Of a stretch of DNA of 21,761 bases, positions 2,117 to 18,398 are shown one piece after another. The stretch comes from a virus. The stretch spans positions 1 to 21,761 of the IMG/VR virus record IMGVR_UViG_3300032294_001736; one strand, 5' to 3'. Under the pieces are notes generated by a model that was not told the DNA's origin, made no database searches, and worked only from the letters and a program-made list of their open reading frames with translations. Within the stretch, counting starts at the first letter, position 1, and every line of letters starts with the position of its first letter. The position numbers and the translations under genes are program-made.

Positions 2117-2118
2117 CC

Positions 2119-2370
2119 ATGCGCCCTGTTGTTCTCGGAAGCCCGATTTCGCGCGATCCTGAAAAGTTCCGCGATTGGGTGAACCAGTGCTTTGCCGAGA
2201 TTGAGCGGGCATCGCAAGAAGACCTGTCTCAAGTCGCGGCAGACTTCACCATCACCGCGTACACTGAAACCAGAACACTGAACGGAACCACGGCAACGCT
2301 GGCCGACGTGCGGAATTTTGTCTGCACGCTGGTCCGCGACATCAAGAACGCCGGAAGCAAAAGGAGCTGA
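2119..2370 (+). CDS. Small conserved phage protein, unknown function
   Basis: 83 aa, beginning three bases after the stop of the preceding structural gene, with no strong Shine-Dalgarno of its own; translation is probably coupled. The C-terminal half contains ITAYTETRTLNGTTATLAD, then a short helix (VRNFVCTLVRDIKNAG). From memory this pattern recurs in small proteins encoded next to podovirus tail genes. There is no TM segment or signal peptide. A virion or assembly role is inferred only from position. Confidence 0.65.
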   Translation: MRPVVLGSPISRDPEKFRDWVNQCFAEIERASQEDLSQVAADFTITAYTETRTLNGTTATLADVRNFVCTLVRDIKNAGSKRS

Positions 2371-2376
2371 CCAGTC

Positions 2377-3237
2377 ATGAATAACATTCAGGCATATTTG
2401 TCATCACTGAACTCTGGTGGAGCGCAATCGCGCCCCAAGCCAGGCGCGCAGCGGCCACAGCCGGTCCCGCCAAAAAATTCAATGATTCCTCCGCGCGAGC
2501 GGCCGATTGACCGTCCCGCTCAGAGGCCGCCAGAAGCGGCCGGTGGCGGCATGTCGGTTCACGGCTGGCCCGCTGATAAGCCTCAGCCACGCCCCCAACC
2601 CGGCGGGCAGAAGCCTGGTGCGTCTGCCAACCCCCGTCCTGGCGTCACTGCCCACGGCACAATTCCGGATAAGAATAACCCATGGATTCCTCCGCGCGAA
2701 CGGCCAATTGACCGTCCTGCGCCGAGACCGCCAGTTGCAGCGCAGCCAACTCCGGCTCCTACCGCGCCGCCAACAGAATGGTGGAAGCGCAACCCGTCTG
2801 ACATCACTGAGCTTCTGCGCCAGCTTTCGGTGAATGCGGGCCAGATGGGAATGCCGGGCGGAAATGTTGGCGCGGTGCAGAAGCCAGCGTTTGGGACCAT
2901 GGGCCAAGCGGTCATCCCGCAGGACATGCGAACCTACGGGCAGGCCCCCAACATGGGCGAGGCCACATTCTTCCAGCAGTCAATGAACGGCGGAATGGCT
3001 CCAATCGCGGCAATGAGCCCGCTGGGCGTGCCGGCTGGCTGGAATCCGCTTGGAAATCAAACAGGGGCCAAACCAATTGGAAATCAAACAGGGGCCAAAC
3101 CAAAGCCGTCCAACAACCCAAGCAAGATTTCGAAAGAAGACGCTATTCGTAGGGAAATACGCCTTCTTGCGGGCGCGCTCCCATCGGTATCCATGGGGAT
3201 GTTCGACCCAAGAAAGCTTATCGGGAATATTCGGTAA
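2377..3237 (+). CDS. Proline-rich, repeat-containing phage protein (probable virion component)
   Basis: 286 aa. The ATG is preceded by AAGGAG at 2361-2366. Residues 1-130 are dominated by Pro, Arg, Gln and Ala and look disordered. They hold two copies of IPPRERPIDRPA(Q/P)RPP (about residues 36-52 and 103-119). Residues 135-215 are a better-ordered Gly/Met/Asn-rich stretch. Near the C-terminus an exact tandem duplication gives GNQTGAKP twice, followed by a basic tail with a possible helix (SKEDAIRREIRLLAGALP). I do not recognise a family. The setting between tail and ejection-type genes suggests a scaffold, linker or packaged protein. Confidence 0.7.
   Translation: MNNIQAYLSSLNSGGAQSRPKPGAQRPQPVPPKNSMIPPRERPIDRPAQRPPEAAGGGMSVHGWPADKPQPRPQPGGQKPGASANPRPGVTAHGTIPDKNNPWIPPRERPIDRPAPRPPVAAQPTPAPTAPPTEWWKRNPSDITELLRQLSVNAGQMGMPGGNVGAVQKPAFGTMGQAVIPQDMRTYGQAPNMGEATFFQQSMNGGMAPIAAMSPLGVPAGWNPLGNQTGAKPIGNQTGAKPKPSNNPSKISKEDAIRREIRLLAGALPSVSMGMFDPRKLIGNIR
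2484..2735 (+). repeat. Two in-frame copies of an IPPRERPIDRP-coding repeat
   Basis: About 51 bases starting at 2484 recur at 2685, exactly 201 bases (67 codons) downstream. The copies encode IPPRERPIDRPAQRPP and IPPRERPIDRPAPRPP. The first 15 bases are identical; later differences include both silent and amino-acid changes. Confidence 0.85.
3050..3103 (+). repeat. Perfect 27-bp tandem duplication (2 copies)
   Basis: The 27-bp unit at 3050-3076 is repeated without a mismatch at 3077-3103. It is in frame and adds nine residues (GNQTGAKPI type) to the proline-rich protein. Perfect identity suggests a recent slippage event. Confidence 0.95.
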
Positions 3238-3283
3238 CGCAAAGGCTTTTAGGCCAAGCCGTTCTTTTTAAGGATAAACACCG

Positions 3284-4090
3284 ATGCCAAAGACAACCAC
3301 CACCACGCAGCTTCCGGACTGGGTAAACAACGCATCGCAGAATAACTACAACATGGCGCAGAACATTGCGTCACGGCCCTACACGCCATACCCCTATCAG
3401 CGCCTTGCCGGGTTTACCGGCGACCAGACCGGCGCAATGTCCATGCTTAGGAATTTCGCGCCAAACGCGGCGGCCAATGCAGGGTCATTCAAGGCGCCGC
3501 GCATGATCGACAGCATTGGGGATGGTGGCGACGTCAAATCCTATATGTCGCCCTACATCGACAATGTGCTGAACCGCACCCAGGATCGCATCCGCCAGTC
3601 TACCAATGCCGCCAAGCAGTGGCAGTCGAACATGAGCGCGCATCAGGATGGCGCATTCGGTGACGCCCGGCATGGCATTGCCGACGCCATGATCGAAGAT
3701 CGCGGCGTGCAGCAGATGGGTGACGCGGCGGCGGAAGCCTATGCGCAGGCCTACAATGATGCGCAGGGCATGAGGCAATATGACATCGGGAACCTGTTCA
3801 ATGCCCAGGAAATGAACGCCGCCAAGCAGCGCGACCTTCTCGGATACATTGATGCGCTGTATCGCTCCGGCTCCAACCAGCAGAACCTTGACCAGCAGTC
3901 AATGACGCTCGGCTATGAGGATTTCTTGAGGCAGTTCAACTATCCGGCGGACCAGTTGAACTTGCTGATTTCTGGCCTGACCAACAGCCCTTATGCGCAA
4001 ACCGTAACCCAAAAGACGCCCAATCAGAACAATTCGCCATGGAACCAGGTTGCCGGGATTCTCGGCAGCGTGGCGTCAGCATTTCTGTAG
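3284..4090 (+). CDS. Probable internal virion / DNA-ejection-type protein
   Basis: 268 aa. The start ATG has AAGGAT 8 bases upstream (3270-3275). The N-terminus (QLPDWVNNASQNNYNMAQNI, then RPYTPYPYQRLAGFTGDQTGA) and the segment YMSPYIDNVLNRTQDRIRQS match, from memory, a protein type common in podoviruses near the ejection genes. The middle is strongly helical and rich in Ala, Gln and Asn (AAEAYAQAYNDAQGMRQ). The C-terminus, IAGIL/VASAFL-like, is short and hydrophobic. No catalytic motif is seen. The gene sits in a run of same-strand virion genes leading into the giant cargo gene, which fits a role in the internal core or DNA delivery. Confidence 0.65.
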   Translation: MPKTTTTTQLPDWVNNASQNNYNMAQNIASRPYTPYPYQRLAGFTGDQTGAMSMLRNFAPNAAANAGSFKAPRMIDSIGDGGDVKSYMSPYIDNVLNRTQDRIRQSTNAAKQWQSNMSAHQDGAFGDARHGIADAMIEDRGVQQMGDAAAEAYAQAYNDAQGMRQYDIGNLFNAQEMNAAKQRDLLGYIDALYRSGSNQQNLDQQSMTLGYEDFLRQFNYPADQLNLLISGLTNSPYAQTVTQKTPNQNNSPWNQVAGILGSVASAFL

Positions 4091-4105
4091 CGGGAGAGAC
4101 CAGCC

Positions 4106-5731
4106 ATGCCAGAGACGTCAGGCACCAAAATGGGCAGCGATACCAAGTCGCCGTCCAGCGGTTCAAAGAGCACAACGAGCGGCGGCGGCAGCAGCGCGGG
4201 ACGCGGCCCCGGCGGCAGCATGGCTGCATCCAAGGCCAGCGCATCGCGCGGACCGTCCGAGGGATCGCGGCAGGGTGGCGGCGGATCGAACGGAAACACC
4301 AACACATCGCGCGGTCCCGGCGGCACCATGGCGGCGGCAAAGGCGAGCAACAACCCTTCTGGAGCAAGCCGCAACACGCAGGCCGCAGGACCCAATCGCG
4401 GACTTGCTGGAACCTCCAACTCGCAAACCGGAGCAGCGAAGGCTGCGACGTCGCAGACCTCACGCGGCATTCTGAAAGACCAGTCTCGCGTTCCGCAGTC
4501 GAACGCGCCATCCCGCAGCTTCGCCGAGCAGAACCGGATCAACTCCCTCAAGGACCAGTACACGCGCTACGGCGAGGCCTACCGAACGATTGCGCCGCCG
4601 CCCGCCGCGCCCGGATCGCCGGGCGCACCACGGGTGCTTAACCCGCAGCGTGAAGTAGCAATGTTCAAGGCCCCGGGAACCGGGACGAATTGGCCGGGGC
4701 AGAGCGCCGTTCGCGGGCAGCTTGCCGGAAACAATCAGGTCGTTGGCGAGACCGGCGCCATGTTCAAAGCTCCTGGCACCGGCACCAACTGGCCAGGGCA
4801 GGCCAACCTGCCGCAAGCGACAGCCTCATGGACCAAAGTTCAACCACCGGAACCGGGCATCGCCGACCGGATCATCAGCGCCTTCACCGGCGGCGGCATT
4901 GCCCCTCCCCAAGACCTTGCGCGCAACCTCACGGACTCAATGCAGCGTTACCGCCAGACAGCGAACCAGGCCGTGGCGGGCGATCCGCGCTTTGCCGACA
5001 GGCAGGAATGGGCGCGGTACATGAACAATCTGCCAGTCGTGAACGGCGAGCTTTCTGGCGCGCGTGTTGACCCCCGCCTGTCTCTGTCTCAATACGCTTC
5101 CGGGCCTCAGGTGATGAAAGACCAGGCGCGGCTTCCGCAGGGCACAGTTGTTCCGGCAAGCGCCGCCGCACCAGCCATGCCGCGCCCGCCGTCAAGCGAG
5201 GCGCCTGCCAGATACAGGCCCCCGGCAGCGCAAGCCCCAACCGAGATAACCATTCCGGGCGGCGGCCTTCCAGTTGCCGGGCAGCAGGCCGCAAGGCAGC
5301 CCACCGTGCCATCATGGGCTCAAAGCCTCTATGCGGGCGAAAACATGCCGTACCCCGCCGGTCCCGAAGGGCAGGGCGAGACAAGCTACGCTGGCCAGGC
5401 ACCGCAGCCCGGCGCCGTGGCTCCGTCGCAGGTTGCTGGCCAGCCTCAATCAATCGGCGAGGCATGGAACCGCGCGCAGTACGAGAAGGACCGCGCCACA
5501 GATGGGTTTCAGCGGGCCATCGAATCTATCCTGAGCGGCAATATCAGCGGCAACACCATGCAGGGTCCGAGAGACGCGGAACGCGGCGGCAAGGATTCCG
5601 GATGGAACCAGCTTATTCTTGAGGAAATCACCCGCATCCTGGGATCGCCCGCGCCCGCAACGGCGTCCAGGCCAGCCGGTGCCGCTCCCAACCAGCCGCA
5701 ACTCGACCTCGTTCTCAACACCTTCCTTTGA
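4106..5731 (+). CDS. Low-complexity Gly/Ala/Ser/Pro-rich phage protein with duplicated short motifs
   Basis: 541 aa. The ATG at 4106 has GGGAGA at 4092-4097. The protein looks largely disordered. Three short motifs occur twice: RGPGG(S/T)MAA(S/A)KAS near residues 33 and 69, MFKAPGTGTNWPGQ near 186 and 219, and (L/M)KDQ(S/A)R(V/L)PQ near 124 and 337. A more ordered segment (about residues 250-310, ISAFTGGG to EWARYMNNLP) and a C-terminal helical segment (WNQLILEEITRILG) flank Pro-rich stretches. I do not recognise a family. It lies between two probable internal virion proteins and ends just before the next gene. A flexible virion or scaffold-like protein is plausible. Confidence 0.65.
   Translation: MPETSGTKMGSDTKSPSSGSKSTTSGGGSSAGRGPGGSMAASKASASRGPSEGSRQGGGGSNGNTNTSRGPGGTMAAAKASNNPSGASRNTQAAGPNRGLAGTSNSQTGAAKAATSQTSRGILKDQSRVPQSNAPSRSFAEQNRINSLKDQYTRYGEAYRTIAPPPAAPGSPGAPRVLNPQREVAMFKAPGTGTNWPGQSAVRGQLAGNNQVVGETGAMFKAPGTGTNWPGQANLPQATASWTKVQPPEPGIADRIISAFTGGGIAPPQDLARNLTDSMQRYRQTANQAVAGDPRFADRQEWARYMNNLPVVNGELSGARVDPRLSLSQYASGPQVMKDQARLPQGTVVPASAAAPAMPRPPSSEAPARYRPPAAQAPTEITIPGGGLPVAGQQAARQPTVPSWAQSLYAGENMPYPAGPEGQGETSYAGQAPQPGAVAPSQVAGQPQSIGEAWNRAQYEKDRATDGFQRAIESILSGNISGNTMQGPRDAERGGKDSGWNQLILEEITRILGSPAPATASRPAGAAPNQPQLDLVLNTFL
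4661..4801 (+). repeat. Duplicated 14-residue peptide MFKAPGTGTNWPGQ
   Basis: Copies at 4661-4702 and 4760-4801, 99 bases apart and in frame. The DNA differs at eight positions, all at third codon bases and all synonymous, so the peptide is identical although the DNA has drifted. Confidence 0.9.
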
Positions 5732-5734
5732 GGA
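5730..5734 (+). promoter_or_regulatory. Ribosome binding site that sets the start of the next gene at 5743
   Basis: GAGGA lies 8 bases before the ATG at 5743. The same reading frame also has a TTG at 5728, overlapping the upstream stop, but that codon has no suitable site in front of it. The ATG is therefore preferred. Confidence 0.65.
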
Positions 5735-5742
5735 CTTCTGAA

Positions 5743-6540
5743 ATGTCCACCATCGACGATCTTATCAACACGCTCACGGCGCAAACCCAGGCCGCCATGG
5801 GCACCGACACATCGCCATGGCAGCAGGAACTGCTTGAGACCATCAACCCGGAAAAACAGCGCCGCCGCAACATCGCCAAGGCGATACAGCAGGCATCGCT
5901 TGCCATGGCACAAACGCGCGGCAGCGTCCTTGATGGCCTCTCGGCCGCTGCGGCAACTGGCGCCGGCTCCTACATCACCGGGCAGCAGGAGTCAGAGGAT
6001 TACGCCGCCAAGGTGAAGCAGGCCATAGCCCTTGATCAGACCAAACAGCAGGACAGGCGCATGGCCATGTTGCTGGACGCCATTGGGGTGAACCAGAAAC
6101 AGGAAGACAACGCGCTGGCCAAGGCTGAAAGTAAGGCCAAAACCGCATGGTACGAGCGCCGGGGCGTGGATACCGCTGACGGGTCGCTGTCTCCCGCGCA
6201 AGCCGCCACCAACAAGCGCTTTGCCTTTACTCAGCTGGGCAATTACGAAAGCGAACTCCGCCGAAACCTTGTCCCGGAAGATCAGATTCCAGGCCTTGTT
6301 CAACAAAAGAAGGCTGAGCTTGAGCAGGCGTTTGGCGTAAGCCTCGACGGCGCACAGTCCGCCGCTCCGCAAGTCGGCGCTGCCGATCCAAACGTCACGC
6401 AGTTTGACCTGATGACCAATGGCGGCGGCCAGTCGCCGGGCATCACAAGTGACGCTGGGACCGCCGATGGCATCACCGCGGTAAACCCGCAGACCGGCGA
6501 ACGCGTTGTTTACAGGAACGGTCAATGGCTTCCCCTCTGA
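5743..6540 (+). CDS. Helical phage protein ending in a GERVVYRNGQW motif
   Basis: 265 aa from the ATG at 5743. Mostly alpha-helical and Gln/Ala-rich: residues about 25-115 form long amphipathic helices (NIAKAIQQASLAMAQTRG, QQDRRMAMLLDAIG). The last 17 residues carry NPQTGERVVYRNGQWLPL, a short C-terminal motif seen in many phage virion-associated proteins. It overlaps the giant polyvalent gene by 16 bases, so the two are probably translated together. No TM segment or catalytic signature. A packaged internal protein or a partner of the giant protein is the best guess from context; no specific family is assigned. Confidence 0.65.
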   Translation: MSTIDDLINTLTAQTQAAMGTDTSPWQQELLETINPEKQRRRNIAKAIQQASLAMAQTRGSVLDGLSAAAATGAGSYITGQQESEDYAAKVKQAIALDQTKQQDRRMAMLLDAIGVNQKQEDNALAKAESKAKTAWYERRGVDTADGSLSPAQAATNKRFAFTQLGNYESELRRNLVPEDQIPGLVQQKKAELEQAFGVSLDGAQSAAPQVGAADPNVTQFDLMTNGGGQSPGITSDAGTADGITAVNPQTGERVVYRNGQWLPL

Positions 6541-9500
6541 GTTCCCTGCCGCCTGGCTTCGTTCTGGAGACGCCCCCGGACAGCGCCAGACCCGCGCGTC
6601 CAAAGGCTCCCGCCCCGCCGCCCGGATTTGTGCTTGAGCAGCAACCGCCGACATTTGAGACAGTGCCATCCGTGCCGTTGCGGCGGCAGCAAGAAACGGC
6701 CCCGCCGCCTGGCTTTGTTCTGAAACAGGAAAAAGAACCGGCGGCACTTGGCGTTGGCGACTACGCCAGCGAGTTTGGCGGCGCTACCGTTCGCGGCGCT
6801 GCCGGTACAACGGCGGGAATGTTGCGCGGAGCCAATGTTCTCACTACCGACTCGCCAGACGAAATCAGGCGCGCCGAGGATGGCATAAGCCGCCTCAAGA
6901 CCATGACTGCCGAGCAAGCCACGGAATTTATGCGTTCGCTTCCCGCTAGGTTGTCCCCAGCTGTTGCGTTCAACTATCAGGTCGCTATACGAAAATTGTG
7001 GGACGGCAAAACTGATGAGGCCAAAAGCTATCTTGACCAGGCGCGCCGCTACACAGACACAAGGCCCATTGAGCAGCAAGGCCTTTCCAAGGCTGCAGCA
7101 AACATTGAAGGCGCGGCCAACGAGGCTTTTCCTCAAGACCCGCGATTCCGCGGTTCTGTTACAAGCGATCTCGGACAGGGGTTTGGATCAACGGCGGCAT
7201 TCCTGCCCATCGGCCTGTTGACCGGCGGAACTGGCGTTGCCGTGGCTGGCGCGGCCGCTGGCGCCGATCAGGGCTACCAAGAAGCAATCCGCGACTTGGC
7301 TGCCCAGCGGCGCGAAGATCGTGGCGAGGCCTACAATTCAGGTCTTGGCGCCGAGGCGCAGGTCAAGGCGCTGCAGGCGGGCCGGTTGAGCGCGCTTCCC
7401 GGCGTGTCCGAAGTGGTGCCGGTCGAGACCTTCATTCAGCAGGCTCCGCGCTTCATCCCCGGCCTGCGCCCCATTGCCAACTCTCCGGCGTTCAAGCGAT
7501 TTGCCAAAGCGTTCGGCCGCATTGGCACTCAGGTTTTAGCGGAAGGCGGTCAGGAGGCGTTCCAGACATGGGCCGGGAACGTCATCAACCAGATTACCGT
7601 TGACCCATCGCAGGCCCTTGACGAAAACGTCCTATACAATTTTGCCATAGGCGGTGCGGTTGGGGGCGGTATGCAGGCCGCCATGGAAGGCTATGGCGCA
7701 ACGCGTGGCACCGGCGAACCACCTCCACCCTCCGCCCCTCCGCCTCCGCGCAACCGGACGGAACCCCGCCTATTCCCCGACGATCCGCCCGGCCCGCAAG
7801 CCGGTCCCGCCACCCCGCCGCCGCAACAGGCCGCGCCCCAGGCAGATCAGCCCGCCCCGGCACCGTCCGCGCCGTCAGCGCCACCCGCACCGCCCCCCGG
7901 CTTTGTTCTGGAGGACGCGCCGCCGTCTGGCATTGACCCGGGCGATGAGGGCTATCTGCTAGGCGCAGGCTACACGCCGGAGCAGATCGCCGACATGAAT
8001 GTGCCAGAACGCGCAGCGGCGGTCCAGGAAGCCCGCCAGCAGGGCGCGACCCCCGTTACCCCATCCGCCGCGCCGCCGCCGCCAGGGACCGCGCCAAGGG
8101 CGCCTAGGGGCACCCGGCAGGCAAAGGCGACCATTGAGACCGCCCAAGACCTTGAGCCGGTCAGGCCGGTGGTCAATCCGGAGCCGTCCGAGGCCCAGGC
8201 CAGAGCGGGCAACTACCAGAAAGCCCACGTCCGCATTCACGGCCTTGACGTGTCCATTGAGAACCCGCGCGGCTCAATCCGGCGCGGCCGGGATGAGGAT
8301 GGCCGGGATTGGGCATCGCCAGAGCTTCCCGCCGACTACGGCTACATCAAGCGAACCACGGGCAAGGACGGCGATCATGTGGACGTCTATATCGGCCCCA
8401 GCCCGGAATCAGACCGGGTTTTCGTCATTGACCAGCTCAACCTGAAAACCGGGAAATTCGACGAGCACAAGAGCGTCCTTGGCGCGTCATCGTTGGGGCA
8501 GGCGGTTGATCTGTATGTGAACTCCTTCGACAATCCCACGCTCAAGCGCATTGGCGACGTGACCGAAATGTCGGTTGACGAGTTTCGCCAGTGGGTGAAG
8601 GAAGGCCGGAACACCAAGCGCCCCGCCGCCAAGGCCGGGATCGGCACGGTGACGCCCAATCCGCCGGAAGCCCCTAGTGAAATCGCTGGCGCCCCGGACG
8701 CCATGCAAGCGGCGGGCCAGATGCCGGTTGCCGCACCGCAGCAAGAACCCGGATCATTACCTAATTCCGTTTCGAACCCAGCAGATTCAACGTTTCAGGC
8801 CCCTTTTGACCAGTTTTCGTCTGAAACTGAATTCCCGGTTATTCAGGCTGAATTACCGGATCAGCCGCAAATTCCCGCACCGCAGCAAGACGCGCCGCGG
8901 TATAACCCGACCACAATCAGCGGCGAGGTGGACGGCGCGCTCAAGCGCTACCTTGGCGGCAACGGCCCGCTGACGCCGGAAGCCTTCGCCAAATTTGCCA
9001 AGATCGACGTGTCCGAGGCTGGCAAGGCCCTCCAATATGCAGGGCTTCGCGGCGGCATCATCATTGACAAGAATGGCAACTGGCGCAGGCCCAGGACGTT
9101 CAAGGGCCCGGCCAACGTGCTGGACTTCATCGCCTCGATCGGCGGCATCAGGGACGTGACCGGCGAGCTTCGCGGCATGGACCTGCCCAAGATGACGCAA
9201 TTCGGGCCGGTGGTGCGCAAGAAGGGCCTTCACCCCGACAGGGTGCGCGAGCAGCTGATCGAAGCCGGCTACCTGTTTGAGCCGGGCCGGGGAACCGATC
9301 GCCAGCAGCAGACCACCGTTGCCGACGTTTACGACCTGATTTCCCAGCACATGAGCGGCCTTCAGGTGGTTGCCGCCGAGGATCAGGCCGAGGCCGAGGC
9401 CATCCGCGTTCAGAAACTGAACGAAAACATGCCGGATGATTGGCAGCCGCAGAACCAGGTGCGGGCACGCTTTGGCGCAGAAGTCTGGTCTGACATCGAG

Positions 9501-12500
9501 GAATTCTTTGCCCGGTCTGGAACCACCGAGGAATCGTGGGGACCGGACGAATTGCGCAACGCGGCGCGGCTGATCGCCGGGGGCATGGAGCCAGATGACG
9601 CCTTTGAGAGGGCCGCCATACAGTATCACGCCACGCTTGAGGATACGGAGGGCTTGGACCCGGCGCTTGAGGCGGCCTTCCAGAACGGAAACCCCAATGT
9701 TATGGTGGCGTTTGAGGACGTGCCATTTCCTGATTTGGAGACAGCAACCAATGCAGATCAGCAGCAAGGACCACAAGAAACGGGCGATGGCGCTGGCCCG
9801 GCTGGCACGGATCGCCTCGACGGAGCAGGGCAAGCAGTTGATGCTGACACAGCAGAAGAAGTTCGAAGCCCTGGCGCGCGTGGCGGCCAAGAGGGAGGCC
9901 GAGGGCAAGATGCCGGGCCGGTAAGCCCCGCCGCCGAACCCGGCGCCGATGGCAGGCCGCAGCTTGTGATCCCCGGCGCCGAGCAGGATGTCCGGGGCGC
10001 CATGCAGAATGCGGCGAAAGCGCCCCTCAAGTCCAACTCCCCGCAGAAGGGCATGGACATCGGCATGTTCGGCTCCGAGCGCGACCAGACGGACATCTTT
10101 GACAAGAGGCCGGAGGAGGTTGATCCGGCCGCCTCATCGCCAAAACCAGAAACCTATGGCGATTCCAACAAGTTCGTGACCAAGGACCGCGCCGCCGAAT
10201 TGCGCGAAAAGCTGAAGGCCAAGCTGAAGAACCAGGTTTCCTCTGGCATTGATCCGGAAATGCTGGCTCTAGGCGCGGAGTTGGCCGCGTACCACATTGA
10301 AGCTGGCGCGCGGCGGTTTTCCGATTTTGCCCGCGTTATTGCCGCTGACTTGGGCGCCACGATCAAACAGGTTCGCCCCTATCTCAGATCGTGGTACAAT
10401 GGCGCGCGGGACATGATGGAGGACGCCGGCCTTGATGTGGCCGGGATGGACTCGCCAGATGAGGTGAGGGCCGCCCTTGCGGCTCTTGATGGGCAGAATG
10501 ACAATGGATCGGCAATCCAGAATAACGGCAAGCCGCAACTTGCGTTGCAGCAGGACGAAAAATTCCACCCGCTTGTCACGGCTTTCGTCAACTACTTTTC
10601 GCAGCCAGACGCCGCATTCGACACGATCACAGAAGCGCGAAAATTTGCGGCCGAGCGTGGTTTTGTAGCAAATCCCGGCACTGCCGAGGCAAAGGACCTT
10701 GACGAAAAGGTCGAACTCGCCATTGTGCTGACCGCCCGCACGATCATTGGCGCGTCCAAGGCCCGGCCCGCCAAAACTGCGTACCGTCGCCTAGTCGATC
10801 TTTATAACCGCCAGCCCAATCTCGGCGTTCGCACGTCTGAAAGCATGGCGGATCAGGCATATTCAACTCCTGCGCCGCTTGCCTTCATTGCATCCCGTCT
10901 TGCCGGCGTGCCCGGGGCCAAGGACGTCTTGGAGCCAACCGCAGGCAACGGCATGCTGCTTATTGAAGCCAGTCCATCCAGGGCTACCGTCAACGAAATT
11001 AACGACCGCCGCGCTGAAGCGCTCAAGGCGCAAGGTTTTCGCGTCACACAGAAAGACGCCGCAACGGGCAGTCTTCGCAAGTCGGATTATCCAGTCGATT
11101 CCGTCATCGCCAATCCGCCGTTTGGCGCGGTCAAGGAATCGGACGGGTCATCCAAGACATTTGACGTTGATGGCTGGACCACAACGCAGATTGACCATGC
11201 GATTGCGCTGAACACGCTTAAGACCATGAAAGACGATGGCCGCGCCGTTCTGATTGTTGGCTCAGTCAAAGAGGGGTCCGAAAAAAGCCGGTCGGATGGC
11301 TACAACACAAAGCAAAAACGAGAGTTTTACTGGAGGCTCTATCAGGGATATAACGTCACCGATCACTTCACGGTTGCGGGCGATCTCTACAAGCGCCAGG
11401 GCGCTGCATGGCCGGTCGATGTCATTGTAATTGATGGCCGGTCAAAATCGGCGCGACCGCTTCCAGCCGTGGAACTGCCCAAGGTCTATGACACTTGGGA
11501 ATCGCTTGAGGAGAAGTTGAATGAAGCTCCCGCTCAATCTGAAACCGCAACCGGACCGGCGGTCGCCGGAAACGAGGTATCTCGACCTTCTGGCGTCGGT
11601 AATGTCTCAGAAGCTGGGACAGAATTGGAAGCCGGAAGCCGCCCAAATCAGCGCCCTGATGGTGCGGGAAGGCCTGCTTCCCCACAGTCCGCCGTTGGTG
11701 GACAAGGAACAGTTTTTGATGGAGGCGTTCAGCGAGAACCCGATGGTGTGGGAAAACAGCAATCTCCCGAACCTGATCGCGGCCAAATGGCGCCCGGAAA
11801 ACGCCCTGACGGCGACGGAGGTCGCAAAGCACCTGTTTCTGGCCGAGAGCGCGTAGCACAGGACGCCGAGTCCGCGCAGCAGCCCTATCGGCCCATGTCG
11901 GGCCAGACATCGCTTGACACCAAGATTCCAACTAACATGGCCGCCGCCGTCGAAGAGTCGCTGCAGGACTTGGCCGACCGCCACGGCGACCTTGATGCGT
12001 GGCTCGAAAATGAACTGGGCTACAAAAAGGGGCAAATCGGCAAGTATCTGGCCGCCGAACAAGTCGATGCCGTAGCGCTGGCCCTTGACAACGTGAAGAA
12101 GGAAGCCGCCTTCATCATTGGCGACCAGACAGGCATTGGCAAGGGTCGTGTTGTTGCCGCAGCATTGCGTTACGCCATGCGCCAAGGGCTTGTGCCGATC
12201 TTTGTCACGGAGAAGCCAAATCTCTACGGCGACATCATCAGAGACCTGAACGACATTGGCGTTCAGGAAATGCTTGGCCGCGACCTGCGCCCGTTTCTCA
12301 CCAATTCCGGCGAATCCATTCCCCTCGATGACGAGGCCGTGGCTTGGTACGACGAGGCGCAGCGCGCCAAGGTCGAAGGACAGCCGTCGCCGCCAAAGCG
12401 CGGCAAGTTCTTGCGCGCCAGCGGCGGCGACCTTCACAAGCGCCAGATGGCCGCGCTGCAGCAGGAAGGAACCGGCAAGGATTTTGACATCATTTTCACC

Positions 12501-15500
12501 ACCTACGACCAGATGAACACGGTCAAGGGGCAAACCACCGACCGCCGCCGGCTGGTGGACGGACTTGCGGGCCGCGCCTTCATCGTTCTGGACGAAAGCC
12601 ACAATGCAGGCGGAACGGAGCCCAACGAACGCGGCCCCAAAAATGCGCCGGAAAGCCGATCCGATTTTCTCAAGAACGTGACGACCAAGGCAAAGGCCGT
12701 CATGTTCTCGTCGGCCACTTACGCCAAGCGTCCAGGCGTCATGGCGCTTTATGCCCGCACCGACATGGGCAAGGCGGTTGACAAGCCAAGCATGCTCGGC
12801 GATCTCATCGCCAAGGGCGGCGTGCCCATGCAGCAAGTCGTAGCCTCTATGCTCGCCAAGGCTGGCCAGTACATCCGCCGCGAACGCTCTTTTGACGGCG
12901 TGTCCTACGACGTCGAGCCAGTTACGGTTGATCTTAAAGCCTATGAGGCGGTCTCGACATCTCTTGCAGCAATTGCCCGTTTCGACATTGAACTCAAAAA
13001 AAGCGATGTTTGGAGCGATGTAAAGGAGGGATTGAAAGGCCAGGCCGAGGCGGCGGCGATGGATCCCGGAACCGGCGAAGCGTCGGTCAACTCGACCAAT
13101 TTCACGTCCCTCATGCACAACATCGTCAACCAGATGCTGCTGGCAATTAAGGTCAATGCCGTGGCAGACCGGGCAATTCAGGCGCTACGCGAAAACGAAA
13201 AGCCGGTCATCACGGTTGCCAACACAATGGGCGCGTTCCTCAAGAGCTACGCCGAGGACAACGACATCAAGGCTGGCAACGGGGTAACGCTGTCGTTCCG
13301 AGATGTCCTGCTCCGTTACCTTGAGCGCACACTCCGCCTCACCGTAAAGCGGCCAGACGGCACCAAGTATCACGTCCAAATCCCGCTGTCCGCCCTGCCG
13401 CCAAGAATGCAGAAAGCCTACGAGGACGCGCGGAACCAGGTTGATCAGATTGACACGGCAAATCTGCCAATTTCGCCCATAGACTGGCTGCGTCATCGAC
13501 TTGCCAGGGCGGGATACCGCGTTGGAGAAATCACCGGCCGCAAGGAAATCCTTGACTACGCCGGTCCAGATAATGCGTCGTTCGCGTTGCGCAGCGATTC
13601 AGAGGTAAGCCCCGCTGGCCGTCGCGTGACAATCGACAAGTACAACCGCGGCGACCTTGATGCCATGATCTTAAACCGTGCGGGATCAACCGGACTCTCG
13701 CTGCATGCGTCTTCCAAGTTTAAGGACCGGCGCCGCCGCCGGATGATCATTGCGCAGGCCGAACTGAACATCGACGTTCACATGCAAATGCTGGGCCGCG
13801 TCCACCGCACCGGGCAGGTTGTACCGCCTGCCTTTGTGCAAGCCTATGCCGATGTTCCCGCCGAAGCCCGGCCCGCCGCTGTGCTGGCAAAAAAAATGGC
13901 ATCACTAAACGCCAACACAACAGCGTCTCGCAAGTCGGCATTTTCGGCGGATGACGGCGTTGATTTCCTGAACGAATACGGCGATCAGGTCGCCCGCGAG
14001 TTCTTGGCTGAAAATCCGGACTTCAACCAGCTGCTTGACGTCAGTCTCGACCCGGAAAAGGAAACCGCCCGCGAACTTACCGGAAGATTGCTTCTTCTCC
14101 CGGTTGCCGATCAGCGCCGCGTCATCGACGAGATTACCGCCCGCTACAAGACGCTGATTGCAAACCTGGACGCCATGGGCGAAAACGCCCTTGAGGCAAA
14201 AACCGTTGACCTGTCCGCCAAGACGGTTGGCCGCCAAGTGTTGCGCCCGTCTGAGGGCGAAAGCCCGTTTACGCAATCGGTCATCCTTGAGGAAGTTGAG
14301 GTCAGGTCAGATGGCAAAGCTCTGCCAATGCCAGAGATTGTCAACAAGGCCGCCGAGGCCTTAGGCGCAGGCAAGGTTTCTACCGACAACCCCGAGTCGG
14401 CGCTGAACGAAATCGCGCGCACCGCCGACAAGGTGCGCCAGACCTTTGCCAAGAAGTGGCTTGACGACTTTGACCGCATGGTCGCCGACGAACTCAAGAA
14501 CACCAAGAGCGACGACGTTCGCTCCGAACGCCGCGAGAAGCACACGGCAAACCGTCAGCGCTTTAACGACTTGCTTGATGTCGTAATGCCAGGGCGTCGC
14601 GTTACGGTGAGGCGCGCAACGGAAGACGGCGAGCCGATTATCGGCATTGTGATGAACGTCGCCCGGCGTGGCCAGACCGGCGCGACAGGAAATCCGCTTG
14701 CCCTCGGCGCATGGACGGCAGAGATTGCCATTGCCGACAACGCGCAGCGTATGCAAATCCCGTTTTCTTCAATGATTATATCGGGAGAGGCTTACGAGGC
14801 CAGTCGGGCGCGGATCATTGTCGGCGCCCCTGATTGGGCCATGGGGATCAAGCAAACCGTCGAAGCATTCGACAGGGCGCGACAGACCGGCAAAGAAAGG
14901 CGCCACATCGTCACCGGCAACATCTTAGCCGGATTTGACCAGACCAGCGGGCGCGGGCAAATCATCAACTACACCGACAACGAAGGAAATGTGAAGCCCG
15001 GCATTCTTATGGCCCGCAATTTTGACCCCGCCGCGTTCCTCAAGGAGCGCGCCGTCCGGTTCAAATCTGCCGATCAAGTGATTGCCTTCCTCAAGCAACT
15101 GCCGGCCGCAGAAATCATGTCGCACGACAACGTGATAACGGTGCGCGCCAGCGGCACGTCCTACGAGATTGAAATGCCAGCCTCAAGGCAAACTGGCGGC
15201 ATTTACTTTTTGAACCCCGAGGTTCGCCGGAGCGCGCGCGACCAGTTTACAAAAATCGGTTCTCGCATGCGCTATCGCACCGCGTCAGAGCGCGAAGCCC
15301 AAACCGTCCTAGACGCAATGATGCGCGTGGGCGCCGTGTTTCAAACGACCGAGAATCAAACGGCTGCTGAGGCAATTATTAATGGCGGCCCGCCCCAGGC
15401 CCCGCTTTCCTCCCGCCCGCCGCAGGGCACGATGCAATCCGCGCCATCCTCTCCCGTCCTGAACAGCTTCCGTTTCGCAATTTCAGACCGGCAGAGCCGC

Positions 15501-18398
15501 GAGCTGACCGCCGAAATCAACCAGATCGCGCAGCGCATTCTTGGCCGCAGACTGGCGGCGGTGAACGTGACGCGTAGCCTTCCCGGCGACGAGGACGCCT
15601 ATTTCGACCCCAATACCGGCGTGATCTACATTGCCCTGCAATCGGTGCTGGACCCTAGGTTCAACATCCGCCACGAGGCGGTTCACGCATTGCGGCAGGC
15701 GGGCGTCATGAGCCAGCAGGAATGGGCCGTCCTGTCCCGCATGGCCAAGACCCGGTGGATTGAGGAATACGGCATCCGCGAGCGCTATGGCGACCTGTAC
15801 CGGGAGCGATTTGACATTGCGCCGGACCAGCTCGAAGAACTGATGGTCGAGGAAGCCATTGCCGACGCCATGGCGCAGCACGCCATGAAGCCGCCCGCCG
15901 ATGACGTGGTGTCGCGCATTTTCCAGCGCGTGCGCCAATTCCTCCGGGCCGTGGCCAACATGCTGGCCGGGCGCGGGTTCACAACGCCAGAGCAAATCCT
16001 GTCCAGCATTGAAACCGGCGGCATGGCACAGCGCCGTCAGGGCACGGGGCAGGGCCGTGGCTTCCTGGTGCCGCAGAGGCAGGAGAGCAGGCAATCGCCG
16101 CTTTCGTCCGTTCCGCCTGACGACGGTGGAGCGGGTGGGCGTTTCTATCAGGCGCAGGCCGCAACGACCGCTGAAGATCGCGCCATGGCAGAGTTTGCCG
16201 GCAACATCAACCTGAGCAAGATTGACGCCGCAGAGGACATAAAAGACGTCCTTCGAGATGCGGCCGAAAAGGCCGACGGCTTCATTGCGGCCCGCCGTGG
16301 CGTGGTTTCCCACGAGCAGACAAAACAGCTTGCCGAGCAGCTCGGCATGTCGCTTGAGCAACTCCTCAAGAGAAAGTCTGGCCAGGCATTCAATGACCAT
16401 GAGGCATACGCCGCGCGGGCGATGCTGGAGAAATCCGCCGAGATCGTAAAGAAGGCTGCCGCCAGAGCAAAAAACACTACGTCGGACGTTGACCGGGCTT
16501 ATTTCGCTCGCGTGTTGACGCGGCACGCCGCCATTCAGGAACAGGTGTCCGGCATCGCCGCCGAGGCGGGCCGGGCCTTGAACCAGTTCAAGATGATGGT
16601 GGGCGCCGATTACCTTCGGGGCGTTGCCGAAATGCTGTCGGAGAAAACGTCTCGCGGGAACATGGGGCCGGAAGCCATCAGGGACATGGCGGAAATGATC
16701 GATTCGCTCGACACCCCAGGCCAGGTTGGGCGAATGGCGCGCGACATGTTCAAGCCGCGCTTCCTTGACATGATCCGCGAGTACTACATCAACTCGCTGC
16801 TTTCGGGCCCTGCGACACAAACCGTCAACTTCATGTCCAATATGCTGGTGGCGCTGAACCAGATACCCGAGACATTTGTGGCCGAACAGATTGGCAAGCT
16901 GCATGGCGGAGACAAGGTTTCCCGCGGCGAAACCATGGCCCGCGCGATTGGCCTTCTTGAGGGATCGCGCGAAGGCTTGCAGCTGGCATGGATGGCGCTC
17001 AAGACGGGTGAGCCGCAAAGCCCGGAAACGCAGTTTGACCAGCCCATGCAAAAGGCCATTCCCGGAATAGCGGGAGAGGTGATCCGGCTTCCGTCGCGGC
17101 TCATGATGAGTTCGGACGAGTTTTTCAAAGCGGTCAATTACCGCGCCGAGCTTACCGCAATTGCCGTTCGCATGGCGCAGGCGGAGGGCTTGGACGGCGA
17201 CGCGCTAGCCGATCGCATATTGGATTTGCGGAACAACCCGACTCCGGCGATGGTCCAACGGGCGGCGGCGGCTGGAAAATATCAGACGTTCCAGAACAAG
17301 CTGGGCACCAAAGGCCAGACCTTGATGCGGTTCCGAGAGTCCTGGCAATTGTGGTGGCTCCTGCCGTTTCTGCGCACCCCCATCAACATTCTCAAATACG
17401 CCGCAGAAAGAAGCCCCATCGGGCCGCTCCTCATGAGCGAGGTTCGCCAGAACTTGCGTGGCGAAAATGGCGGCGCCGCGCGTGATACGCAGATTGCCAG
17501 AATTGCGCTGGGAACCGTCATGCTTGCCGGAATGGGCGCCATTGTAATGTCCGGCATGGCGACTGGCGGCGGCTCCGATGATGAGCGTGAAAAAGGCGTG
17601 ATGCGCGCGGATGGCTGGCAGCCCTATAGCCTGAACATCGGCGGGAAATACTACAGCTACCTGCGGTTTGATCCATTCTCCCTGCACCTTGGCATTGTCT
17701 CCGACATGGTTGAATTGAGGAACAAGATCAGCAAGGGTGAGTATGAAAATCTCGGGTGGATGCTGATGGCTTCGATCATCAACAACGTGACCGACAAGAC
17801 ATGGCTGAAATCCGCCACTGAATTTTCGCGGATGACCATGGACCCGAAAGCGTACATGGAAAACTACCTGTCGCATCTGGCGTCTGGATTTGTGCCGAAC
17901 TTCCTTGCGCAGATAGCCAGGGCGAAAGACCCGTCATTCCGCGATGCCAGAGGGGTTTTGGACAAGATCAAAGAAAGGATTCCGGGCCTCAGGGAAACCC
18001 TGCCGCAACGCTACGACATTTTTGGCGAGCCCATCACCGGCGAAGGCAATGTTGGCCCGGACCTGTTTTCTCCTGTGTATGTCTCTACGCAGAAGAACAA
18101 CCCGATCGCGCGGGCCATGGTGGATGCCAAATATTTCCCCGGAAAGCCGCGCCGCCACATCAACGGCCACGACCTCACAACAGAGCAGTACGCGGAGTAC
18201 ACGCAGATTTCCGGCAAAGAAGCTGTGCGCAGGCTTGAGCGCATGGTAAAATCTCCGTCGTGGTCGCAGCGCAGCCAGGACTCCAAGGAACGGGTATTGA
18301 AGCGCGGCTATGATCAGGCGCGCGAGATTGCCAGAAAAACGCTGATGCGAAAACATCCAGAGTTGCGAGCCAAGGCGGAGCAGACGGCGGGCCAATGA
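6525..18398 (+). CDS. Giant polyvalent phage protein: PPase-like / DNA methyltransferase / SNO-type helicase / HExxH peptidase
   Basis: 3957 aa in one uninterrupted frame. The start ATG has AGGAA 6 bases upstream and overlaps the previous gene. Order of parts: three PPGFVL motifs in the first 67 residues and a fourth at 457-463; a Gly/Ala-rich hydrophobic segment (about 220-245); Pro-rich linker; PPase-like domain (562-694); conserved helical/winged-type segments (about 793-960); SGIDPE...AYHIEAGARRFSDFA segment (about 1211-1299); methyltransferase; helicase; metallopeptidase; long C-terminal region with hydrophobic stretches near 3605-3630 and 3661-3682. This architecture matches the polyvalent proteins described for phages and conjugative elements; P1 DarB is the best-studied relative, packaged and injected to counter restriction. 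That role here is inferred. In two linkers (9751-9924 and 11521-11856) codon bias leaves this frame. Whether the chain stays whole or is cleaved is unknown. Confidence 0.9.
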   Translation: MASPLSSLPPGFVLETPPDSARPARPKAPAPPPGFVLEQQPPTFETVPSVPLRRQQETAPPPGFVLKQEKEPAALGVGDYASEFGGATVRGAAGTTAGMLRGANVLTTDSPDEIRRAEDGISRLKTMTAEQATEFMRSLPARLSPAVAFNYQVAIRKLWDGKTDEAKSYLDQARRYTDTRPIEQQGLSKAAANIEGAANEAFPQDPRFRGSVTSDLGQGFGSTAAFLPIGLLTGGTGVAVAGAAAGADQGYQEAIRDLAAQRREDRGEAYNSGLGAEAQVKALQAGRLSALPGVSEVVPVETFIQQAPRFIPGLRPIANSPAFKRFAKAFGRIGTQVLAEGGQEAFQTWAGNVINQITVDPSQALDENVLYNFAIGGAVGGGMQAAMEGYGATRGTGEPPPPSAPPPPRNRTEPRLFPDDPPGPQAGPATPPPQQAAPQADQPAPAPSAPSAPPAPPPGFVLEDAPPSGIDPGDEGYLLGAGYTPEQIADMNVPERAAAVQEARQQGATPVTPSAAPPPPGTAPRAPRGTRQAKATIETAQDLEPVRPVVNPEPSEAQARAGNYQKAHVRIHGLDVSIENPRGSIRRGRDEDGRDWASPELPADYGYIKRTTGKDGDHVDVYIGPSPESDRVFVIDQLNLKTGKFDEHKSVLGASSLGQAVDLYVNSFDNPTLKRIGDVTEMSVDEFRQWVKEGRNTKRPAAKAGIGTVTPNPPEAPSEIAGAPDAMQAAGQMPVAAPQQEPGSLPNSVSNPADSTFQAPFDQFSSETEFPVIQAELPDQPQIPAPQQDAPRYNPTTISGEVDGALKRYLGGNGPLTPEAFAKFAKIDVSEAGKALQYAGLRGGIIIDKNGNWRRPRTFKGPANVLDFIASIGGIRDVTGELRGMDLPKMTQFGPVVRKKGLHPDRVREQLIEAGYLFEPGRGTDRQQQTTVADVYDLISQHMSGLQVVAAEDQAEAEAIRVQKLNENMPDDWQPQNQVRARFGAEVWSDIEEFFARSGTTEESWGPDELRNAARLIAGGMEPDDAFERAAIQYHATLEDTEGLDPALEAAFQNGNPNVMVAFEDVPFPDLETATNADQQQGPQETGDGAGPAGTDRLDGAGQAVDADTAEEVRSPGARGGQEGGRGQDAGPVSPAAEPGADGRPQLVIPGAEQDVRGAMQNAAKAPLKSNSPQKGMDIGMFGSERDQTDIFDKRPEEVDPAASSPKPETYGDSNKFVTKDRAAELREKLKAKLKNQVSSGIDPEMLALGAELAAYHIEAGARRFSDFARVIAADLGATIKQVRPYLRSWYNGARDMMEDAGLDVAGMDSPDEVRAALAALDGQNDNGSAIQNNGKPQLALQQDEKFHPLVTAFVNYFSQPDAAFDTITEARKFAAERGFVANPGTAEAKDLDEKVELAIVLTARTIIGASKARPAKTAYRRLVDLYNRQPNLGVRTSESMADQAYSTPAPLAFIASRLAGVPGAKDVLEPTAGNGMLLIEASPSRATVNEINDRRAEALKAQGFRVTQKDAATGSLRKSDYPVDSVIANPPFGAVKESDGSSKTFDVDGWTTTQIDHAIALNTLKTMKDDGRAVLIVGSVKEGSEKSRSDGYNTKQKREFYWRLYQGYNVTDHFTVAGDLYKRQGAAWPVDVIVIDGRSKSARPLPAVELPKVYDTWESLEEKLNEAPAQSETATGPAVAGNEVSRPSGVGNVSEAGTELEAGSRPNQRPDGAGRPASPQSAVGGQGTVFDGGVQREPDGVGKQQSPEPDRGQMAPGKRPDGDGGRKAPVSGRERVAQDAESAQQPYRPMSGQTSLDTKIPTNMAAAVEESLQDLADRHGDLDAWLENELGYKKGQIGKYLAAEQVDAVALALDNVKKEAAFIIGDQTGIGKGRVVAAALRYAMRQGLVPIFVTEKPNLYGDIIRDLNDIGVQEMLGRDLRPFLTNSGESIPLDDEAVAWYDEAQRAKVEGQPSPPKRGKFLRASGGDLHKRQMAALQQEGTGKDFDIIFTTYDQMNTVKGQTTDRRRLVDGLAGRAFIVLDESHNAGGTEPNERGPKNAPESRSDFLKNVTTKAKAVMFSSATYAKRPGVMALYARTDMGKAVDKPSMLGDLIAKGGVPMQQVVASMLAKAGQYIRRERSFDGVSYDVEPVTVDLKAYEAVSTSLAAIARFDIELKKSDVWSDVKEGLKGQAEAAAMDPGTGEASVNSTNFTSLMHNIVNQMLLAIKVNAVADRAIQALRENEKPVITVANTMGAFLKSYAEDNDIKAGNGVTLSFRDVLLRYLERTLRLTVKRPDGTKYHVQIPLSALPPRMQKAYEDARNQVDQIDTANLPISPIDWLRHRLARAGYRVGEITGRKEILDYAGPDNASFALRSDSEVSPAGRRVTIDKYNRGDLDAMILNRAGSTGLSLHASSKFKDRRRRRMIIAQAELNIDVHMQMLGRVHRTGQVVPPAFVQAYADVPAEARPAAVLAKKMASLNANTTASRKSAFSADDGVDFLNEYGDQVAREFLAENPDFNQLLDVSLDPEKETARELTGRLLLLPVADQRRVIDEITARYKTLIANLDAMGENALEAKTVDLSAKTVGRQVLRPSEGESPFTQSVILEEVEVRSDGKALPMPEIVNKAAEALGAGKVSTDNPESALNEIARTADKVRQTFAKKWLDDFDRMVADELKNTKSDDVRSERREKHTANRQRFNDLLDVVMPGRRVTVRRATEDGEPIIGIVMNVARRGQTGATGNPLALGAWTAEIAIADNAQRMQIPFSSMIISGEAYEASRARIIVGAPDWAMGIKQTVEAFDRARQTGKERRHIVTGNILAGFDQTSGRGQIINYTDNEGNVKPGILMARNFDPAAFLKERAVRFKSADQVIAFLKQLPAAEIMSHDNVITVRASGTSYEIEMPASRQTGGIYFLNPEVRRSARDQFTKIGSRMRYRTASEREAQTVLDAMMRVGAVFQTTENQTAAEAIINGGPPQAPLSSRPPQGTMQSAPSSPVLNSFRFAISDRQSRELTAEINQIAQRILGRRLAAVNVTRSLPGDEDAYFDPNTGVIYIALQSVLDPRFNIRHEAVHALRQAGVMSQQEWAVLSRMAKTRWIEEYGIRERYGDLYRERFDIAPDQLEELMVEEAIADAMAQHAMKPPADDVVSRIFQRVRQFLRAVANMLAGRGFTTPEQILSSIETGGMAQRRQGTGQGRGFLVPQRQESRQSPLSSVPPDDGGAGGRFYQAQAATTAEDRAMAEFAGNINLSKIDAAEDIKDVLRDAAEKADGFIAARRGVVSHEQTKQLAEQLGMSLEQLLKRKSGQAFNDHEAYAARAMLEKSAEIVKKAAARAKNTTSDVDRAYFARVLTRHAAIQEQVSGIAAEAGRALNQFKMMVGADYLRGVAEMLSEKTSRGNMGPEAIRDMAEMIDSLDTPGQVGRMARDMFKPRFLDMIREYYINSLLSGPATQTVNFMSNMLVALNQIPETFVAEQIGKLHGGDKVSRGETMARAIGLLEGSREGLQLAWMALKTGEPQSPETQFDQPMQKAIPGIAGEVIRLPSRLMMSSDEFFKAVNYRAELTAIAVRMAQAEGLDGDALADRILDLRNNPTPAMVQRAAAAGKYQTFQNKLGTKGQTLMRFRESWQLWWLLPFLRTPINILKYAAERSPIGPLLMSEVRQNLRGENGGAARDTQIARIALGTVMLAGMGAIVMSGMATGGGSDDEREKGVMRADGWQPYSLNIGGKYYSYLRFDPFSLHLGIVSDMVELRNKISKGEYENLGWMLMASIINNVTDKTWLKSATEFSRMTMDPKAYMENYLSHLASGFVPNFLAQIARAKDPSFRDARGVLDKIKERIPGLRETLPQRYDIFGEPITGEGNVGPDLFSPVYVSTQKNNPIARAMVDAKYFPGKPRRHINGHDLTTEQYAEYTQISGKEAVRRLERMVKSPSWSQRSQDSKERVLKRGYDQAREIARKTLMRKHPELRAKAEQTAGQ
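8208..8606 (+). other. Domain: inorganic-pyrophosphatase-like (residues about 562-694 of the giant protein)
   Basis: The segment starts NYQKAHVRIHGLDVSIENPR and contains DYGYIKRTTGKDGDHVDVYI, then FVIDQLN, FDEHKSVLG and EMSVDEFRQWV. DGDHVDV (D615, D617, D620) resembles the D-x-D-x-x-D metal-binding signature of soluble pyrophosphatases. The domain is known in phage polyvalent proteins; its substrate there is not established. Confidence 0.75.
9751..9924 (+). CDS. Nested out-of-frame small basic protein (57 aa) inside the giant gene
   Basis: The ATG at 9751 opens a +1 frame relative to the giant gene and ends at TAA 9922-9924. A possible Shine-Dalgarno TTGGAG lies at 9735-9740. The product is basic and helical (KKRAMALARLARIASTEQG, KKFEALARVAAKREAEGK). 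By hand count, 53 of 57 third codon positions are G or C in this frame, against 25 of 58 in the giant frame over the same bases. There the giant protein is a Gly/Asp/Gln/Ala linker. The codon bias indicates that this frame is, or was until recently, the one under coding selection. I do not recognise a family. It could be an expressed nested gene or the relic of a separate gene later overrun by the giant frame. Confidence 0.6.
   Translation: MQISSKDHKKRAMALARLARIASTEQGKQLMLTQQKKFEALARVAAKREAEGKMPGR
10560..11519 (+). other. Domain: N6-adenine DNA methyltransferase (residues about 1346-1665)
   Basis: SAM-binding motif I reads EPTAGNGMLL (E1470 onward) and the catalytic motif IV reads NPPF (1530-1533), the canonical N6-adenine methylase signature. 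The preceding segment (KLKNQVSSGIDPE, AYHIEAGARRFSDFA) is the conserved companion often found in front of such methylases in polyvalent proteins. Both key motifs are intact, so activity is plausible. Confidence 0.88.
11508..11516 (+). promoter_or_regulatory. Shine-Dalgarno of the nested gene at 11521
   Basis: GAGGAGAAG lies inside the giant coding sequence with its AGGAG core about 7 bases before the ATG at 11521. It is among the strongest ribosome sites in the window and is well placed only for the nested frame. An in-frame TGA (11518-11520) sits directly before the ATG. Confidence 0.65.
11521..11856 (+). CDS. Nested out-of-frame protein (111 aa) inside the giant gene, unknown function
   Basis: The ATG at 11521 has a strong Shine-Dalgarno 7 bases upstream and opens the +1 frame relative to the giant gene, ending at TAG 11854-11856. 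The product has normal protein composition with regular hydrophobic spacing (YLDLLASVMSQKLGQNWKP, ISALMVREGLLP, LPNLIAAKWRPENALTATEV). In the giant frame the same bases give a Gly/Pro/Arg/Glu linker between methyltransferase and helicase. By hand count, 88 of 111 third positions are G/C in this frame and only 44 of 112 in the giant frame; the rest of the giant gene is clearly GC3-rich. I therefore call it a real or very recently real gene. No TM segment or known motif is seen. Its placement suggests a link to the DNA-modification module, by inference only. Confidence 0.7.
   Translation: MKLPLNLKPQPDRRSPETRYLDLLASVMSQKLGQNWKPEAAQISALMVREGLLPHSPPLVDKEQFLMEAFSENPMVWENSNLPNLIAAKWRPENALTATEVAKHLFLAESA
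11880..14220 (+). other. Domain: strawberry-notch-type SF2 helicase (residues about 1786-2566)
   Basis: Walker A is GDQTGIGKGR (K1873), Walker B DESH (2023-2026), motif III SSAT (2062-2065), a motif V-like GSTGLSLHAS (from 2387) and motif VI GRVHRTGQ (2424-2431). The lead-in YRPMSGQTSL and LAAEQVDAVALAL are typical of the SNO family. All motifs are intact. It follows the methylase, the same order as in DarB-like antirestriction proteins. Confidence 0.88.
15462..15990 (+). other. Domain: zincin metallopeptidase, MPTase-PolyVal type (residues about 2980-3156)
   Basis: FDPNTGVIYIAL precedes RHEAVHALRQAG, an HExxH zinc site (H3050, E3051, H3054). Downstream EEAIADAMAQH supplies a likely third ligand (E3109 or E3110). 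Metallopeptidases of this kind are known parts of polyvalent proteins and have been proposed to process the polypeptide or attack host proteins. Confidence 0.8.
16180..18395 (+). other. Domain: C-terminal region of the type ending giant phage proteins (residues about 3219-3957)
   Basis: Starts with AEFAGNINLSKIDAAEDIKD, continues through a helical core (REYYINSLLSGPATQTVNFM) and two hydrophobic stretches (WQLWWLLPFLRTPINIL; IALGTVMLAGMGAIVMSGM). It then contains YLRFDPFSLHLGI and a basic tail. It resembles the large polyvalent-associated C-terminal domain sometimes labelled LPD38; that label is from memory. The hydrophobic stretches could contact the membrane during ejection. Confidence 0.6.

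Follow-up and report, generated by a model that had tools for sequence, protein, structure and literature searches.

A probable protein-coding gene in the +1 frame of a giant viral gene, nested in the linker between its methylase and helicase domains

The window, by which is meant the whole 21.8-kb IMG/VR virus record that was analysed, carries a giant gene for a methylase-helicase protein, and an open reading frame (ORF) of 111 aa that lies in the +1 frame of one of its linkers is read here as a genuine nested protein-coding gene, translated by internal initiation (probability about 0.85; translation is inferred, with no translation data). The evidence for this gene is its codon periodicity, its ribosome site and its conservation, and not the open frame. 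Same-strand nested genes described from bacteria and phages are in many cases young, of narrow distribution or contested; the present one has comparative support across phyla, together with a relative whose predicted fold reaches a pLDDT of 96.6, and it provides a clean case of asymmetric selection, in which the nested frame is conserved and the host frame is near-neutral yet uninterrupted. The features concerned are the following:

6525..18398, + strand: giant polyvalent gene, 3957 aa, a single ORF that contains the nested gene
10860..11513, + strand: region of the giant protein with the N6-adenine methylase domain, the left flank of the linker
11508..11513, + strand: GAGGAG resembling a Shine-Dalgarno sequence, 7 nt ahead of the nested ATG; an equivalent site is kept in relatives
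11518..11520, + strand: TGA in frame with the nested ATG and adjoining it, with the result that the nested frame is open only from its start codon onwards
11521..11856, + strand: nested gene encoding 111 aa, shifted by +1 against the giant gene; product predicted to be an all-helical globular protein
11910..13820, + strand: Strawberry-notch-type helicase/ATPase region of the giant protein, the right flank of the linker (AAA_34 and Helicase_C_4)

In the 3957-aa giant protein, an N6-adenine methylase and a Strawberry-notch-type helicase accompany a pyrophosphatase-like domain; the protein matches a DarB-like antirestriction PHROG (E 5.6e-79) as well as AAA_34, Helicase_C_4 and InPase, and its methyltransferase (MTase) is supported by phrog_6263 (1.8e-7) and by an N6_Mtase match below threshold. 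With an N6 MTase joined to an SF2 helicase within one multidomain phage protein, it qualifies as a DarB-like polyvalent methylase-helicase. The fusion of an N6-adenine MTase to a SWI2/SNF2-class ATPase has been described as a polyvalent-protein dyad of phages and conjugative elements (Iyer et al., 2017; PMC5512222), and the host gene of the window encodes the same kind of protein. A word search of that paper returned no mention of an overlapping or nested gene, and relative to it the nested family is new; a protein family not recorded before is added to an enzyme of antirestriction type that is widespread. No Rfam match was found within the window.

The nested ORF runs from an ATG at 11521-11523 to a TAG at 11854-11856, offset by +1 from the giant ORF at 6525-18398, and occupies the linker that separates the N6-methylase domain from the Strawberry-notch-type helicase domain. 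An earlier note on this DNA had described the +1-frame ORF at 11521-11856 with GAGGAG about 7 nt before its ATG, and had counted third-position G/C at 88/111 in the nested frame and 44/112 in the giant frame; the layout was confirmed, and the counts agree with giant-frame G/C at the three codon positions (GC1/2/3) of 0.79/0.62/0.39 over the overlap, compared with 0.65/0.47/0.70 gene-wide. The overlap has the lowest GC3 among the 111-codon stretches of the entire giant gene, and synonymous resampling places its giant-frame GC3 at z = -7.6, against -2.0 to +1.8 for seven other +1 ORFs of the same gene.

The openness of the frame could be no more than a by-product of a low-complexity hydrophilic linker, with nothing encoded, and the composition of the linker is of the kind that this would need, as +1 stops seldom arise from Gly/Pro/Asp/Gln/Arg codons, whose first position is also rich in G/C. 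When codons were resampled under an unchanged amino-acid sequence of the linker, 53% of resamplings in the window left the +1 frame open (P = 0.53, unremarkable), as did 24% on average over 141 loci; the frame is often open by chance because the hydrophilic linker has few NTA/NTG codons, the source of +1 stops. Open-frame length was dropped as evidence for the nested gene after this resampling. What a linker by-product leaves unexplained is the GC3 deficit, which over the 141 loci has a median z of -6.4, together with the flipped periodicity, the nested dN/dS, the conserved Shine-Dalgarno (SD) sequence and the confident AlphaFold folds described below. It is highly improbable, and as a full explanation it is already refuted by the periodicity, dN/dS and SD results.

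A sequence search of phages, plasmids and viral contigs with the window nested protein alone as query gave nothing significant, and relatives surfaced only once homologues of the flanking domains had been gathered. Loci were found through such homologues (160 in genomes of IMG/VR and GTDB, and others in named phages and plasmids), and the scored set comprised 163 distinct loci with both flanks. A member of the nested family was detected by profile in the +1 frame, at the same place, in 149/163 loci, a figure that is partly circular since the family profiles were built from part of the scored loci; the carriers are phages, plasmids, cyanobacteria, Bacteroidetes and Proteobacteria. The sole profile match outside the +1 frame across the 163 loci lies in L132, a frameshifted locus; a natural split of the gene was rejected there, the better reading being that the MAG carries a frameshift of a single base. 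Some of the 14 loci without a profile-detected member have weak matches within the same ORF, and the nested member is clearly absent from L004, L165, L167, L168, L006 and L007; the helicase-only locus L145 has no nested relative and is uninformative. The case that the earlier note would have taken as a refutation, homologues that keep the linker and break the nested frame, was not met, with 149/163 loci in the +1 frame and a few clear absences. In the plasmid versions without the nested gene, L006 (7408-7752) and L007 (7545-7883), a 112-114-aa gene lies directly downstream of the helicase gene; these small genes gave no match to the nested-family profiles.

The nearest relative of the window, L090, is 73% identical in the best flank segment, and 56-58% of the nested protein is shared. 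Profile comparison with hhalign links the window clade to a large phage-cyanobacterial clade (E 3.8e-6) and that clade to a Desulfovibrio-type set (4.2e-7), and gave no link between the Bacteroidetes set and the other sets (E 0.08); the Bacteroidetes version of the nested gene may, judging from this, be independent. Across loci, nested and helicase similarity correlate with a rho of 0.83, without tree reconciliation.

This correlation bears on a further possibility, which is that the nested ORF is a mobile out-of-frame homing element. Such an element is known from ShiLan, where an out-of-frame HNH ORF in a phage methylase gene encodes a mobile homing nuclease with a disjunct distribution (PMC11855218), and the topology is the same in that an ORF in another frame, overlooked by standard annotation, lies inside a phage DNA methylase gene that keeps its own frame open. 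For the window this would mean a hidden HNH endonuclease inserted in the methylase gene, a reading to which we attach scarcely any weight: no nuclease family was found in Pfam, PHROGs or NCBIfam for 11 representatives, the rho of 0.83 (again without tree reconciliation) and the presence in 149/163 loci are expected of vertical inheritance and not of invasion, and the nested gene sits in a variable inter-domain linker and not among conserved residues. The nested family further differs from the ShiLan ORF in being a non-nuclease, helical family in a fixed +1 frame that diverges in step with its host gene, and in occupying its inter-domain position across phages, plasmids and several phyla. The ShiLan ORF is the closest precedent of the nested gene; the protein and its inheritance differ. 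Another gene within a phage defence-against-restriction module gene is iddB of P1 ('internal to ddrB', NC_005856; PMC10695390), which lies antisense in ddrB, whereas the window gene is on the same strand, in the +1 frame of a methylase-helicase gene; iddB was ruled out as a relative on these two grounds, the antisense orientation and the different gene. The helicase and methylase motifs by which the linker was placed were not seen in P1 darB.

The pattern of substitution is that of a gene in the nested frame. Over 31 independent close pairs, differences at giant positions 1/2/3 amount to 0.17/0.11/0.45 in the flanks and to 0.36/0.25/0.20 in the overlap, where the periodicity is flipped. Changes were counted simply, according to their effect in both frames and without a full codon model; for 35 pairs selected on the identity of their helicases this gave a nested dN/dS of 0.63 (0.58-0.69), with controls of 1.01 for the same frame in the flanks and 1.52 for the +2 frame of the overlap; the giant-frame dN/dS was 1.21 in the overlap versus 0.16 in the flanks. 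A biased choice of pairs, picked on nested identity, gave a nested dN/dS of 0.43, and the window-L090 pair gave 0.71 over 79 codons only, which is weak alone; the window clade is thin, and the selection estimates derive mainly from relatives. In 16/17 pairs, identity is higher between the nested products than between the products that the giant frame gives from the same stretch. If the nested protein is kept constant, the expectation is 6.4 stops per gene and an open giant frame in 4.5/141 loci; the giant frame is in fact open in 141/141, a count that was favoured by the selection of loci with both anchors in one frame. In relatives the nested frame has been shown by computation to be under purifying selection, and the giant frame to be a near-neutral, always open linker rich in Gly, Pro and Asp. 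The earlier proposals of selection on the nested frame and of a giant frame that serves as a linker are supported, the first by the nested dN/dS against its two controls and the flipped periodicity, and the second by the giant-frame dN/dS of the overlap against that of the flanks; a nested dN/dS near 1, which was to count against the gene, did not materialize.

The start of the nested gene was compared across the same loci. A 5-nt SD precedes 95/141 chosen nested starts, as against 33/1851 background +1-frame ATGs (1.8%); the choice among nested starts favoured those with an SD, and when the first ATG was taken regardless the count was 82/160. In AT-rich loci, GAG (0.70) and AAG (0.69) are preferred in the six codons upstream of the start, compared with a flank usage of 0.44 and 0.45, as would be needed for an SD. 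At the level of sequence, the putative ribosome-binding site and start have been shown to be conserved in relatives. In most carriers the nested ORF starts right after the methylase domain, as would suit programmed frameshifting that yields a methylase-nested fusion and not a separate protein; such a fusion is nevertheless quite improbable in view of an SD and ATG at a near-constant place and of a nested-frame stop within 10 codons upstream of the start in 101/141 loci, which stands directly before the start in 38/141, as it does in the window. If the nested gene is translated from its own start, ribosomes would initiate internally at the nested Shine-Dalgarno/ATG on the giant mRNA, and the small protein would then be made together with the giant enzyme, both steps being inferred. 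An internal restart of the helicase where the nested ORF stops (ATGA in Gloeobacter) was considered and is not general, being found in 4/141.

AlphaFold models the window nested protein as six helices with a pLDDT of 86.5, and a cyanobacterial relative, in L098, with a pLDDT of 96.6 and a pTM of 0.90 (41 rows). Foldseek found no match at E <= 0.001 in the PDB for either model, an absence that is not proof, and no significant match in BFVD for the window model; profile searches of solved structures gave nothing below E 0.03, and VIA-align of the cyanobacterial model was uninformative (best Z 3.6). For the 11 representatives, Pfam, PHROGs and NCBIfam hold no family to which the nested protein could be assigned.

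The main functional rival accepts the nested gene as real and takes its product to be an independent small DNA-mimic anti-restriction protein, like Ocr or ArdA. The family is acidic, with a median pI of 4.45, a net charge of -7.4 per 100 aa and 94% of members below pI 5.5, and the host gene stands in a DarB-like antirestriction setting (PMC5512222), both of which would suit a mimic; the window protein, however, is nearly neutral (pI 6.1, net -1), the acidity may partly follow from bases shared with the giant frame, no significant Foldseek match to a known structure was obtained, and the nested family was not found without the methylase-helicase. A DNA mimic is accordingly regarded as unlikely, if less so than the other alternatives. 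The function that we put forward, tentatively and short of even odds, is that of a dedicated partner of the methylase-helicase, either an accessory subunit or a regulator of its folding or activity. This role is inferred, and the function untested; it rests on the fact that profile searches never confirmed the nested family apart from the methylase-helicase gene.

These profile searches covered 366 genomes in total, 65 cyanobacterial ones of the order to which the L098 genome belongs and 301 of the family of Phocaeicola massiliensis. All 34 of the 34 newly fetched loci with a confident match carry the nested gene between methylase and helicase in the +1 frame; a weak match in L201 was not confirmed as a family member. 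No free-standing relative was confirmed in the 366 genomes once the fetched loci had been checked, and a stand-alone copy between separate methylase and helicase genes, for which the earlier note had suggested a search, was not borne out, all checked confident profile matches being nested. Because a free-standing relative was not found, the nested gene probably originated by overprinting of the linker. It is further possible, although short of even odds, that this is an ancient overprint-only family, which arose in the +1 linker frame, spread with the methylase-helicase gene through phages, plasmids and several phyla and never escaped from it, being an obligate partner, with a second, independent nested gene in the window clade.

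Nested genes are already a known kind. Overprinted orphan genes of bacteria and viruses, in which a novel protein comes from an alternative frame of an older gene, are described in the literature (for example PMC8227390, PMC4683798), and like the nested family they have no free-standing relatives found. The bacterial cases that the abstracts of these papers name are few and recent, whereas the nested family turns up repeatedly in one position, across phyla and types of element. An equally widespread, frame-fixed family never confirmed as free-standing was not found in a literature search of open-licence papers.

The earlier expectation that standard annotation would drop the nested ORF holds for the most part. 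At the site, the annotations of Picosynechococcus PCC 7002 pAQ6 and Bacteroides phage BS-TP4 show the big gene alone; the expectation fails for some plasmid records, in which the nested ORF is called and the big gene is cut short. In Gloeobacter pGMOR1 (L009 2492-2941) the nested ORF is annotated as the RefSeq hypothetical protein WP_230844304.1 and the helicase start at an ATG overlapping the nested stop, with the giant frame open from 1477 to 7002. WP_023980692.1 of Pseudomonas plasmids is likewise an annotated RefSeq hypothetical protein, with a weak match, and is a likely relative. Unlike our reading of the window, the records of both proteins have the big gene begin after the small ORF, which leaves the overlap unrecorded. 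The nested gene may explain why annotation pipelines place the start of some of these big genes wrongly, and it suggests that low-complexity linkers in giant phage genes can hide genes. On Pseudomonas plasmids, an annotated 167-aa hypothetical protein (L008 2834-3337) is +1 to an open frame that continues into the helicase and has the same GC signature (0.91/0.67/0.38); its upstream domain was not recognised as a methylase.

Two other linker stretches of the giant gene in the window are low in GC3. One, at 8745-8925 (GC3 0.48, z -3.2), has no long +1 ORF assigned. The other contains a second nested ORF:

9751..9924, + strand: second nested ORF, of 57 aa and likewise in the +1 frame; it lies in a linker of the giant gene further upstream, and GGAG precedes its ATG

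The GC3 z of this ORF is -4.9, and its product had no match in Pfam or PHROG above the curated cut-off or with a convincing E-value. A relative of it is encoded in L090 (4010-4168; 39% over 46 aa, tblastn E 1.8e-4), and lysine-rich ORFs similar to it occur in L010, L012 and L002.
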